Program-made: the position numbers and the translations under genes
Notes under the pieces: model-generated
What the model was told of the DNA's origin: nothing
Databases searched by the model: none
The model's input: only the letters and a program-made list of their open reading frames with translations
Assembly (NCBI RefSeq): GCF_011067745.1
Contig: NZ_JAAMPJ010000003.1
Location: 124,001-188,000 of the forward strand
Direction of reading: 5' to 3'
Length of the DNA: 64,000 nt
Origin: Lentzea alba
Lineage (GTDB): Bacteria > Actinomycetota > Actinomycetes > Mycobacteriales > Pseudonocardiaceae
Part shown: positions 38,674 through 48,385 of the stretch, in pieces
Layout: each line of letters starts with the position of its first letter
How positions within the stretch are numbered: position 1 is the stretch's first letter

Positions 38674-39780
38674 ATGGAACGCGTGAGATTGTCCGCTGTG
38701 GACAACCTGAAGGTGATCCTCGTGGCGTGGGTCATCGGCGGCCACGCGCTGCTGGGCTACGCCGCGATCGGCGGCTGGCCGTACGACGAGGTCAACGAGG
38801 TCACGTTCCACCCCGGCGTCGAGACCGTGCTGGCGGCGGTGATCGGGCCGTCGGGGTTGTTCTTCATGGGCACCTTCTACTTCATGGCCGGGATCTTCAC
38901 GCCCGGCTCGATCGAGCGCAAAGGCCGGCAGCGGTTCGTCGTCGATCGGCTCGTCCGGCTCGGGACGCCGTGGCTGGTCAGCGCGGTGCTCGTGTGGCCG
39001 ACGTTCGTGTGGATCGCCTACAACGGGGCCGGGCAGGACGTGTCGTGGTGGCACGCGTTCACGCACCGGGACCCGTTGCTGGACAGCGGGTCGTTGTGGT
39101 TCGTGGGCGCGTTGCTGATCTTCTCGATCGCGATCGCCTTCGCGCCGCCGATCAAACAGCACACGATCACCACGAGGACCGTCGTGGGCATGACGATGGT
39201 GGTGGCGGGCACGACGTTCCTGACGCGGCTGGTGTTTCCGGCGCGCAGCGGACAGGTCGGGGATCTGCACCTGTGGTGGTGGCCGCAGTGCCTCGGGATG
39301 TTGCTGCTGGGCGCGATCGGCGGACACAAGCTCGCGGAACGGGTGCCGGACGAGATCTACCGGATGACCCGCAACGTCGTCGTCGCCACCATCGCGGTGC
39401 TGCCGATCGCCGCGGCGCTCATGGGAGTGCTCGACCTCTCGAAGAACGCCGAACCGTTCCTCGGTGGCTGGAGGTGGCAGGCGCTGGTGCTCGCGCTCAT
39501 CGAGGGAGTCCTGGTGGTGGCGGGCAGTGTGTGGCTGATCGGGCTGGCCCAGCGCAGGCTGAACACCCAGGGACCCTTCACGGAGGGGCTGGCGCGGTCC
39601 GCCTACGTCGCGTTCATCGTGCAGGGGCCGATTCTGCTCAGCCTGGCGACCGCCCTGCGTCCGCTGGAGCTTCCCGCCGAGGTGAAGGCTCCCCTCGTCG
39701 GGGCCGGCGCGATCGCGTTGTCGTTCGCGATCGGCTGGGTCGTCACTTCACGCCGAGGCGCTTCAGCACGCTCGTCGTGA
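38674..39780 (+). CDS. acyltransferase 3 family membrane protein
   Basis: A 368-residue integral membrane protein with about ten hydrophobic helices. It begins with the family landmark VDNLKVILVAWVIGGHALLG, including the catalytic-type histidine in the first helix, then FFMGTFYFMAGIF and the R-rich loop RFVVDRLVRLGTPWL. Such proteins O-acylate sugars, peptidoglycan or antibiotics at the membrane. Usual length is 350-400. The acceptor is unknown. The last 38 bases overlap the convergent dxs gene. The 124-base gap before it holds nothing recognisable. Confidence 0.85.
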   Translation: MERVRLSAVDNLKVILVAWVIGGHALLGYAAIGGWPYDEVNEVTFHPGVETVLAAVIGPSGLFFMGTFYFMAGIFTPGSIERKGRQRFVVDRLVRLGTPWLVSAVLVWPTFVWIAYNGAGQDVSWWHAFTHRDPLLDSGSLWFVGALLIFSIAIAFAPPIKQHTITTRTVVGMTMVVAGTTFLTRLVFPARSGQVGDLHLWWWPQCLGMLLLGAIGGHKLAERVPDEIYRMTRNVVVATIAVLPIAAALMGVLDLSKNAEPFLGGWRWQALVLALIEGVLVVAGSVWLIGLAQRRLNTQGPFTEGLARSAYVAFIVQGPILLSLATALRPLELPAEVKAPLVGAGAIALSFAIGWVVTSRRGASARSS

Positions 39781-41449
39781 TGCCGGCCGCGTCCAGCCCG
39801 TGCGCGCGCAGGATGCGGGCGCGGGAGTCGTGCGGCAGGAAACGCGGCGGCAGGGCGAAGGTCGCTACACAGGTAGCGGAACCGGTCAGCGCCTGCCCGA
39901 GCCGTGCGCCCAGTGCGCCGGTGGAGGTCGTGTCCTCGACGGCGAGCACCAGGCGGTGCTGACCGCTGTACTTGACGAGGTGCGGATCCAGGGGCGCGGT
40001 CCAGCGCGGATCCACGACGTTGACGCGCACGTCGTGGGCGGCGAGCTCGTGAGCTGCGGCCAGGCACGGACCGGCCAGGGGGCCGACGGCGATCAGCAGG
40101 ACCTCGGCTTCCGGGGTCTCGTGCAGCACGTCGAAGTGGCTCACCCGGCGCACCGCGGGCACGTCCGGGCCGGCGGTGGCCTTCGGGTAGCGCACGACGG
40201 TCGGGCCGTCGGAGACTTCCACCGCTTCCCGGAGCAACGCGGCGAGCGACGCCGGATCGCGGGGCGCGGCGAGGCGCAGGCCGGGCACGACGGGCAGTAC
40301 CGAGGCGTCCCACATGCCGTGGTGCGAGGCGCCGTCCGGGCCGGTCACGCCGGCCCGGTCCAGCACGAACGTCACGGGTAACCGGTGCAGCGCCACGTCC
40401 ATGAGCAGTTGGTCGAACGCACGCGACAGGAACGTGGCGTAGATGGCGACGACCGGGTGCAGGCCGCCCATCGCCATGCCGGCGGCGGACGTCACGGCGT
40501 GCTGCTCGGCGATGCCCACGTCGAACACGCGCGACGGGAACCGCGCGGCGAACGGGCGCAGGCCCACCGGCTCCAGCATCGCCGCGGTCAGACAGACGAC
40601 GTCAGGTCGTTCCGCGCCGATCGCCACGATCTCGTCGGAGAACGCGTCGGTCCACGTCCGGCCGGCGGACGAACCCGAGGCGCCGACCGCGTGCATGCGG
40701 TCGGCCTCATCGGTCTCCGCGGCCGGATATCCCTTGCCCTTCACCGTCTTGCAGTGCACGACGACCGGACGGCCCAGCGCTTTGGCTTCCCACAGGGCGT
40801 TCTCGACCGCGTGCACGTCGTGGCCGTCGATCTCGCCGAGGTAGGCGAGGCCCAACGCCTCGAAGAGCCCGCGGGCCGAGCCGTTGAGCAACGACGCCGC
40901 GAACCCGCCGGCGGTCGGGTCGTACGAGCGGCCGTTGTCGTTCAGCAGCACCACGACCGGGCGGGACGAGCCGCCGATGTTGTTCAACGCCTCCCAGCAC
41001 ATCCCGCCGGTCAGCGCGCCGTCACCGACGATCGCGACGACGCGGCGGTCCGTGCCGGCGAGCTCGAAGGCCTTGGCCAGACCGTCCGCATAGGACAGTG
41101 CGGTCGAGGCGTGCGAGTTCTCGACGACGTCGTGCGCGGACTCGGCGGCGGACGGGTAGCCGGACATGCCACCGGCCTGGCGCAAGGAGTCGAAGTCCGA
41201 GCAGCGGCCGGTCAGCATCTTGTGCACGTACGACTGGTGCCCGGTGTCGAACAGCACGACGTCGACGGGTGAGGTGAAGACCCGGTGCACCGCGATGGTC
41301 AGCTCGACGGCGCCCAGGTTCGGCCCGAGATGCCCGCCGGTCCGGTGCACCTTGGAGATCAGGAACGACCGGATGTCCTCGGCGAGCAGCGAAAGCGACG
41401 AGGAAGCAAGCGCCCGTACGTCCGCGGGCGAGGTGATGTCAGCCAGCAC
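39743..41449 (-). CDS. dxs: 1-deoxy-D-xylulose-5-phosphate synthase (short form)
   Basis: A 568-residue thiamine-diphosphate enzyme for the first step of the MEP isoprenoid pathway (pyruvate plus glyceraldehyde 3-phosphate). Family segments include [35 protein letters not shown], the cofactor motif [16 protein letters not shown] and [18 protein letters not shown]. It is some 60 residues shorter than housekeeping Dxs (620-640). GTG at 41449 lies inside the last codons of ispH (11-base overlap). As the last gene of the encapsulin-terpene operon it probably supplies precursor for that operon, with a housekeeping copy elsewhere. Confidence 0.9.
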
Positions 41450-46979: not shown

Positions 46980-48385
46980 CAGCCTTCGCGGCCCAGCTCG
47001 ACGTGCTCCAGGACACCGATCGCGTCCGGGACCATGATGGCGGCCGAGTAGTAGGCGCTGACCAGGTAGTTGATGATCGCCTGGTCGTTGATCCCCATGA
47101 ACCGCACGGAAAGCCCCGGCTGGTACTCGTCCGGGATGCCGGTCTGGTGCAGGCCGATCACGCCCTGGTTCTGCTCGCCGGTGCGGATCAGCATCACCGA
47201 CGACGTGCGGGTGTCCGAGATCGGGATCTTGTTGCACGGCAGCACCGGGATGCCGCGCCAGGCCGGCACCTGCTGGCCGTTGAAGTCGATGTGCTGCGGG
47301 TAGATGCCGCGCTTGTTGAGCTCACGGCCGAACGCCGCGATGGTGCGCGGGTGGGCCAGGAAGTAACCGGGGTCCTTCCACACGATCGACAGCAGCTCGT
47401 CGAAGTCGTCCGGGGTGGGCGGGCCGGACCGGGTGTGGATGCGCTGCTTGAGGTCCGCGTTGTGCAGCAGGCCGAACGACCGGTTGTTGACGATCTCGTG
47501 CTCCTGGCGTTCGCGCAGGGCTTCGATCGTGAGCCGCAACTGCTGCTCGACCTGGTCCATCGGGTTGTTGTAGAGGTCCGCGACCCGGCTGTGGACCTGC
47601 AGCACGGTCTGCGCGACGCTCAGCTCGTACTCGCGCGGCGAGAGCTCGTAGTCGACGAACGTGCCGGGCAGCACGGGCTCGCCGTCGTGGCCGGCCGCCA
47701 TGCCGATCTCGGCCTCACCGAAGTCGTTCTGCGGCTTGTTGCGGCTGTTGAACGCCTGCTGGATGTGCGCGCGCAGACCGCCGGCTTCGCCGTTGAGGGC
47801 CTGGAAGTCGTCCCACGACAACGTGAGCACGGTGACCGGCGTGACGGCCTTGGCGCTGTACTCCCACTCGCCCTGCGGCCCGGCCAGCACGGTCTCGCCG
47901 AAGTACTCGCCGTCGGCCAGGTTGCCGAGCACGGTCTCGCCGCCGTACTCACCGGTGCCGATCTTGTCGACCTTGCCGTGCGCGATCAGCACGACCTGGT
48001 TCTTCGGACGGCCCTTCTCGACGATGACGTCGCCGATGCCGAACTCCTGCTGCGTGAAGCGACCGGCGAGCGCGGTGAGGACGGCCTCGTCGTCGAAGCC
48101 CTTCAACAGCGACAGCTCGGTGAGCTCCATCGGCACGACGCGGACTTCGGCGCCCGTGTTCGTGAACGAGACGCGGCCATCGCCCAGCGTGTAGGTGAGT
48201 CGGCGGTTGACGCGGTACGCACCACCCGCGGCCTGGACCCAGGGCAGCACCTTGAGCAGCCATCGGGAAGTGATTCCCTGCATCTGCGGGACGGACTTGG
48301 TGGTAGTGGCCAGATTACGTGCGGCGGCCGTGCCCAAACTCAGCTGCTGACGGCCCTCATTGAGGTCAGAATCCGTCACAGTCAC
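46979..48385 (-). CDS. family 2B encapsulin shell protein, copy 2
   Basis: A 468-residue paralogue of the shell protein at 43467-44867, similar along its whole length: [33 protein letters not shown] at the N-terminus and [39 protein letters not shown] at the C-terminus. The inserted cyclic-nucleotide-binding-like domain (about 85-205) reads YFGETVLAG and lacks the conserved arginine of true cAMP sites. It is the first gene of the seven-gene operon and would co-assemble with, or form separate shells from, copy 1. GTG at 48385 has AGGTGG 9 bases upstream. Confidence 0.85.

Follow-up and report, generated by a model that had tools for sequence, protein, structure and literature searches.

Why should an encapsulin operon keep, and apparently tag for packaging, a terpene synthase that has lost the residues with which such enzymes bind metal? 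The question is raised by a 64,000-nucleotide stretch from the genome of the soil actinobacterium Lentzea alba (assembly GCF_011067745.1, contig NZ_JAAMPJ010000003.1, positions 124,001 to 188,000; hereafter the window), in which seven genes on the minus strand, running from 48385 down to 39743, encode two Family 2B encapsulin shells (Enc1 and Enc2), two terpene synthase (TS) homologues between them (TS1 and TS2), a polyprenyl diphosphate synthase (PT) and paralogues of IspH and Dxs. TS1 has intact metal motifs; TS2 appears to be new, as a candidate encapsulin-operon cargo that lacks its metal motifs and does not resemble a working class I synthase. The operon bears on the reason for which certain Family 2B encapsulins have two shells and several cargos. 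The genes are listed below in order of transcription, with start codons chosen by eye from reading frame, overlap and homologues.

46979..48385, minus strand: Enc1, Family 2B encapsulin shell, 468 amino acids, GTG start, Enc1-type diagnostic VWK stretch
45882..46979, minus strand: TS1, class I terpene synthase, 365 amino acids, DD and NSE motifs intact, C-terminal tag
44882..45889, minus strand: TS2, terpene-synthase-fold protein, 335 amino acids, without the NSE triad and the first Asp of DDxxD, likely pseudoenzyme
43467..44867, minus strand: Enc2, Family 2B encapsulin shell, 466 amino acids, GTG start (TTG at 44885 possible), Enc2-type diagnostic RRR stretch
42418..43464, minus strand: PT, polyprenyl diphosphate synthase, 348 amino acids, NF041169 f2_encap_cargo4
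41439..42380, minus strand: ispH paralogue, 313 amino acids, passing the curated cut-off
39743..41449, minus strand: dxs paralogue, 568 amino acids, passing the curated cut-off

The DDxxD and NSE motifs of class I synthases hold a Mg2+ triad (PMC6162201). At these positions TS2 of the window reads SDAFLE and QEIVGFDRV, with S81 replacing the first Asp of DDxxD and Q214, G218 and V222 replacing the NSE triad. Since these residues are lost, ionisation of a prenyl diphosphate by TS2 is very unlikely, judging from its sequence. Both TS1 and TS2 match the Pfam family Terpene_syn_C_2, and the predicted model of TS2 is a confident class I alpha-helical fold with a low-confidence tag tail. The original prediction of two terpene synthases thus holds for TS1, which carries DDEFF and NDIFSYERE as expected of an active class I enzyme, and for the family and predicted fold of TS2, but not for the metal site of the latter.

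The loss is widespread in the genus. All three NSE residues are missing from TS2 in 22 of 23 Lentzea operons, two of which (L020/L049 and L022/L051) retain DD, whereas both motifs are kept in all 23 Lentzea TS1 proteins. We surveyed 122 domains, comprising 22 Lentzea TS2 and 100 reference domains that are not independent of one another (Lentzea TS1 accounts for 23, and many are from actinobacterial relatives), after omission of the duplicate rows L085, L087 and L088. Among the reference domains, conservation reaches 95% or more in 55 columns; of these, the TS2 domains keep 37 in 20 or more members, 14 in four or fewer and 4 in between. The first DDxxD Asp is kept in 2/22 and each of the NSE residues in 0/22. 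Close to the motifs, E239 is kept in none and N244 and G186 in two each, and lost columns that lie outside the motifs include P111, W133, T136, F148 and F275 (all TS1 numbering), so the losses focus on the metal site yet extend past it. In a separate, non-random set of 34 loci (the 30 that scored best when 394 genomes of the class were searched, and four named loci), DD and N..S..E/D are kept in 67 of 68 domains, the sole exception being TS2 of the window itself, re-fetched as L088.

On these data TS2 is not a decaying pseudogene, because its frame is open in 23/23 Lentzea operons (327-350 residues), its ratio of nonsynonymous to synonymous substitution rates (omega) is 0.10, and GLGT persists at its C-terminus in 22/23. 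Single-ratio omega values under the GY+F3X4 model, estimated from 22 genomes (20 for dxs) with L054 omitted throughout and L045 and L050 omitted for dxs, were 0.034 for TS1, 0.046 for Enc1, 0.048 for dxs, 0.050 for ispH, 0.064 for Enc2, 0.073 for PT and 0.102 for TS2, the highest of the seven. By pairwise counting, with pairs involving L052 or L053 omitted, TS2 lies above TS1 in 186 of 190 pairs and is about equal to Enc2 in median dN/dS (0.289 versus 0.284). TS2 also has the lowest mean protein identity across 22 Lentzea genomes, 75.6%, where the remaining six genes lie at 88.5-94.2%; L054 was omitted here and, together with L045 and L050, from the correlation matrix. L053 is 97%, 92% and 94% identical to the window in Enc1, TS1 and Enc2 respectively but only 56% in TS2, and when identity is followed in a sliding comparison that starts late in Enc1 and ends in the early PT-side Enc2, the fall to ~56-73% is confined to TS2. 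L052 and L053 have a common TS2 class, while a five-gene tree of the other operon genes leaves them unpaired, a pattern suggesting that TS2 has been swapped as a cassette by homologous recombination through flanking genes.

The 22 TS2 proteins without motifs all fall into one clade (SH-like approximate likelihood ratio support, SH-aLRT, 100), and ten of them were recovered together with 100/100 support in a second tree. A single ancestral loss of the motifs followed by divergence is therefore the simplest account, with the caveat of long branches, for which the first TS2 tree was flagged. Placing the class-B TS2 proteins (L023/L024, the genomes of L052/L053) with the intact TS2 of Lentzea sp. 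NBRC 105346, which would imply two losses, was rejected by the approximately unbiased (AU) test (p = 0.00017, log-likelihood 55.7 worse), itself limited by the long branches. TS2 clusters with the C-terminal halves of encapsulin-linked two-domain cyclases, apart from the geosmin-type halves OWNGS_C, L031_C and L026_T3, the last two of which are also set apart from it in the second tree. A recent copying of TS1 is ruled out by this grouping and by the 34% identity of the two proteins, and a split geosmin synthase by the trees and by a separate two-domain geosmin-synthase-like gene, motifs included, elsewhere in the genome. TS1 and TS2 are separate proteins in 22 of the 23 Lentzea operons, that of the window among them; in Lentzea sp. 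NEAU-D7 (L009/L038/L067) they are fused in a 707-residue frame with a GPTGLGT tag between the domains, and several relatives from other genera have both cyclase halves in one frame. Kutzneria viridogrisea (L026/L055/L087) has three synthase domains between Enc1 and Enc2, one TS1-like, one an encapsulin-type C-half and one a geosmin-type C-half, the latter two sharing a frame.

The setting of TS2 is a recognised one. According to PMC12407261 and PMC8346489, Family 2B operons include 904 with terpene cyclases, 165 with a cyclase and a prenyltransferase and 503 that are two-component; GPTGLGT-type motifs are candidate targeting sequences, and precursor genes occur near the prenyltransferase systems. 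The former source describes an operon type with the cyclase between Enc1 and Enc2 and the prenyltransferase directly downstream of Enc2. The window has two Family 2B shells within 10 kb, cyclase genes between them and PT directly after Enc2, and by gene content it is a member of this two-component type, with which it also shares the cyclic-nucleotide-binding-like insert in the shells, the residues diagnostic of Enc1 and Enc2, and nearby isoprenoid supply genes. It differs in that the cyclase is split into two genes of which the second encodes a half without metal ligands, an arrangement that the parts consulted of the two papers do not mention.

Both shells match NF041163 encap_f2b (769 bits for Enc1 and 735 for Enc2; cut-off 400) and, by sequence models, have an HK97-type SrpI-like domain whose E-loop carries the cNMP-binding-like insertion typical of Family 2B (PF00027, residues 113-197 in Enc1 and 119-204 in Enc2, the latter counted from the TTG start). 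They are 62% identical to each other and closely match the solved shells 9bix and 9bje (phmmer to chain 9bix_A, E 6.7e-205 for Enc1 and 4.6e-185 for Enc2), whose aligned stretches hold the S. lydicus Enc2 and Enc1 motifs respectively. The first diagnostic motif of S. lydicus is TVWK in Enc1 and RRRK in Enc2 (PMC12407261); the window has IVWK and RRRN, which types the two shells accordingly. They are the only PF19307 matches in the genome, the encapsulin family for which it was searched. All 31 genomes checked have an encap_f2b match above cut-off, so that a shell-free control is lacking and a comparison of GLGT tags with shell presence is uninformative.

The seven genes are closely packed. Enc1 and TS1 overlap by 1 base, TS1 and TS2 by 8 and ispH and dxs by 11, while gaps of 14, 2 and 37 bases separate TS2 from Enc2 (a 4-base overlap with the TTG start), Enc2 from PT and PT from ispH. 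The same order is found in 23 of 24 Lentzea genomes (22 fetched regions and the window) and so is not a matter of chance. In the remaining genome (G241), Enc1 is 97.7% identical over 399 residues and runs off the end of a 3657-base contig, which does not imply that the operon is absent there. The tblastn matches are split for dxs in G239 (L045) and for PT and dxs in G238 (L050), and may reflect frame errors or insertions. Beyond the genus, all seven regions examined (L055-L061, chosen by similarity to TS2) have the order shell, synthases, shell, PT, followed within the bases fetched by ispH in three (L055, L056 and L058) and by dxs in two (L056 and L058). PT scores 470 bits against NF041169 f2_encap_cargo4, the polyprenyl transferase cargo of Family 2 encapsulins (cut-off 450), and the genome has five further polyprenyl synthase matches. 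The operon ispH and dxs are second copies, each with one other genomic match (above cut-off for dxs). Pfam and NCBIfam agree with the seven-gene set of the original prediction, whose gene order and tight spacing are confirmed; its assignment of the shells to Family 2B and its proposal of dedicated isoprenoid supply are likewise borne out, the former by sequence comparison and the latter by the second gene copies, and the genome-neighbourhood search that it proposed recovered the operon across Lentzea.

Both synthase homologues carry candidate targeting tags at their C-termini, GPTGLGT in TS1 and SPTGLGTAA in TS2, and GLGT is also kept by TS1 in 23/23 Lentzea, suggesting that both proteins enter the shell by this means. 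Neither these tags nor the missing metal motifs of TS2 were noted in the original prediction. Their best match is to the N-half of NF041168 f2_encap_cargo3, a two-domain geosmin-synthase-like cargo which likewise bears a GLGT tag; they fall below its whole-protein cut-off because only that half is covered. Unlike this cargo, they are separate proteins from overlapping genes, and TS2 is without the first DDxxD Asp and NSE. TS1 is similar to the geosmin synthase N-domain (PDB 5DZ2/5DW7), although it has DDEFFAE where most TS1-like rows of the 34-locus set have DDHFLE, and the metal motifs of that domain are lost in TS2. Farnesyl diphosphate is probably the substrate of TS1, and a sesquiterpenoid product is suggested by a single line of evidence, the likeness to this N-domain. 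The separate geosmin-synthase-like gene of the genome (L063, C30, 2000-4190) terminates in GPSGLGTSAYRL; because of this ending, and because no PF19307 shell genes other than the two of this operon were found in the genome, its product is a possible cargo loaded in trans into the same shells.

What, then, might TS2 do? We put at about even the chance that the shells package TS1 and TS2 by way of their tags and that TS2 is a non-catalytic partner of TS1. PT, IspH and Dxs would boost precursor supply, and TS1 would carry the chemistry, cyclising a prenyl diphosphate. TS2, which would share its ancestry with the C-terminal halves of two-domain cyclases associated with encapsulins and lacks the ligands to ionise a diphosphate, would have been retained as a packaged companion, most likely as part of a heteromer in which it stabilises TS1 or adjusts the output of TS1. 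A sharper version, which we rate as somewhat less likely, is that TS2 is a packaged pseudo-terpene-synthase: the dead half of what was once a two-domain cyclase, kept and swapped across Lentzea as a cassette, it would tune how fast the live half works, or what that half makes, within a two-component encapsulin. Several observations weigh against a non-catalytic partnership. The raised omega, cassette exchange and long branches are also compatible with relaxed constraint, or with a move towards new chemistry. The single TS1-TS2 fusion could stem from one deletion, and physical association need not follow from it; moreover TS1, being tagged itself, needs no loading adaptor in the form of TS2. 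The pocket of TS2 is not wholly dismantled, as 22/22 Lentzea proteins retain D82, the second Asp, together with R168, R169 and R309; by our own mapping D82 and R309 would correspond to the DDXD-motif Asp and RY-pair Arg that form the closing salt bridge of CotB2 (PMC6162201). Finally, the protein that occupies the TS2 position in Lentzea sp. NBRC 105346 (L028/L054/L085) looks intact in its motifs, and a dead partner is thus not universal in the genus.

In the principal alternative, TS2 is a metal-independent second-step enzyme performing proton-initiated chemistry on a hydrocarbon or alcohol made by TS1, so that ligands for diphosphate ionisation become dispensable. The second half of geosmin synthase, which works on germacradienol, offers a parallel, and TS2, a homologue of the C-half in two-domain cyclases, keeps W76, W303, E149 and R168/R169 in 22/22 Lentzea proteins and remains under purifying selection. 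We nevertheless consider this unlikely, though well worth keeping in view: TS2 groups with encapsulin-linked rather than geosmin synthase C-halves, the geosmin-type C-halves of the 34-locus set all retain DD and NSE, and in TS2 the near-motif columns E239, N244 and G186 have gone as well. That TS2 is a relaxed remnant drifting to loss inside a useful operon would explain why its identity is the lowest and its omega the highest of the seven genes, but is improbable given an omega far under 1, universally open frames, a nearly invariant tag, much of the scaffold kept in 22/22 and a TS2 gene in all 23 complete operons. We give very little credence to two active synthases making different terpenoids, as originally implied; the shared Terpene_syn_C_2 match and the intact NBRC 105346 protein speak for it, but N, S and E of the motifs that bind the Mg2+ triad are gone from every other Lentzea TS2. 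Least plausible of all, to the point of being scarcely credible, is that shells and synthases are mere neighbours rather than one functional unit, given the overlapping or tight junctions, the cargo tags, the published operon type and an order conserved both within Lentzea and in the regions from other genera selected through TS2.

A non-catalytic partner has a precedent in the small subunit of plant geranyl diphosphate (GPP) synthase, a non-catalytic subunit of a prenyl diphosphate synthase. The plant protein shares with TS2 the situation of a motif-less paralogue beside an active enzyme, but TS2 belongs to a different enzyme class and bears a shell tag. Our literature search, for which subscription papers were mostly out of reach, found no description of an encapsulin terpene operon in Lentzea, nor of any encapsulin operon that includes an inactive terpene synthase. 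Lentzea provides a genus-wide natural series, with motifs intact, partly lost or fully lost and synthases split or fused, in which two questions become testable: does an encapsulin require a cargo without catalytic activity, and can a terpene synthase that is itself dead shape what a live one produces?

The operon is flanked by seemingly unrelated genes, a convergent acyltransferase gene on the plus strand (38536-39780) and an HbpS-like gene that ends 362 bases ahead of Enc1. Also outside the operon is a weaker polyprenyl synthase match (89.5 bits) at ~18190-18768 on the plus strand. One further feature precedes Enc1.

48386..48765, minus strand: upstream region with blocks conserved between the window and 20 Lentzea loci, 21 sequences in all

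The conserved blocks, from an alignment omitting L084-L087, make this the likely promoter region of the operon. A sigma-70 scan upstream of Enc1 found no promoter, though such a scan carries little weight in an actinobacterium. Common to the 21 sequences is a near-palindrome, CCACTCGGAGTGG, at 48677-48689 on the minus strand, a possible operator or, alternatively, a possible terminator for the HbpS-like gene that lies upstream.

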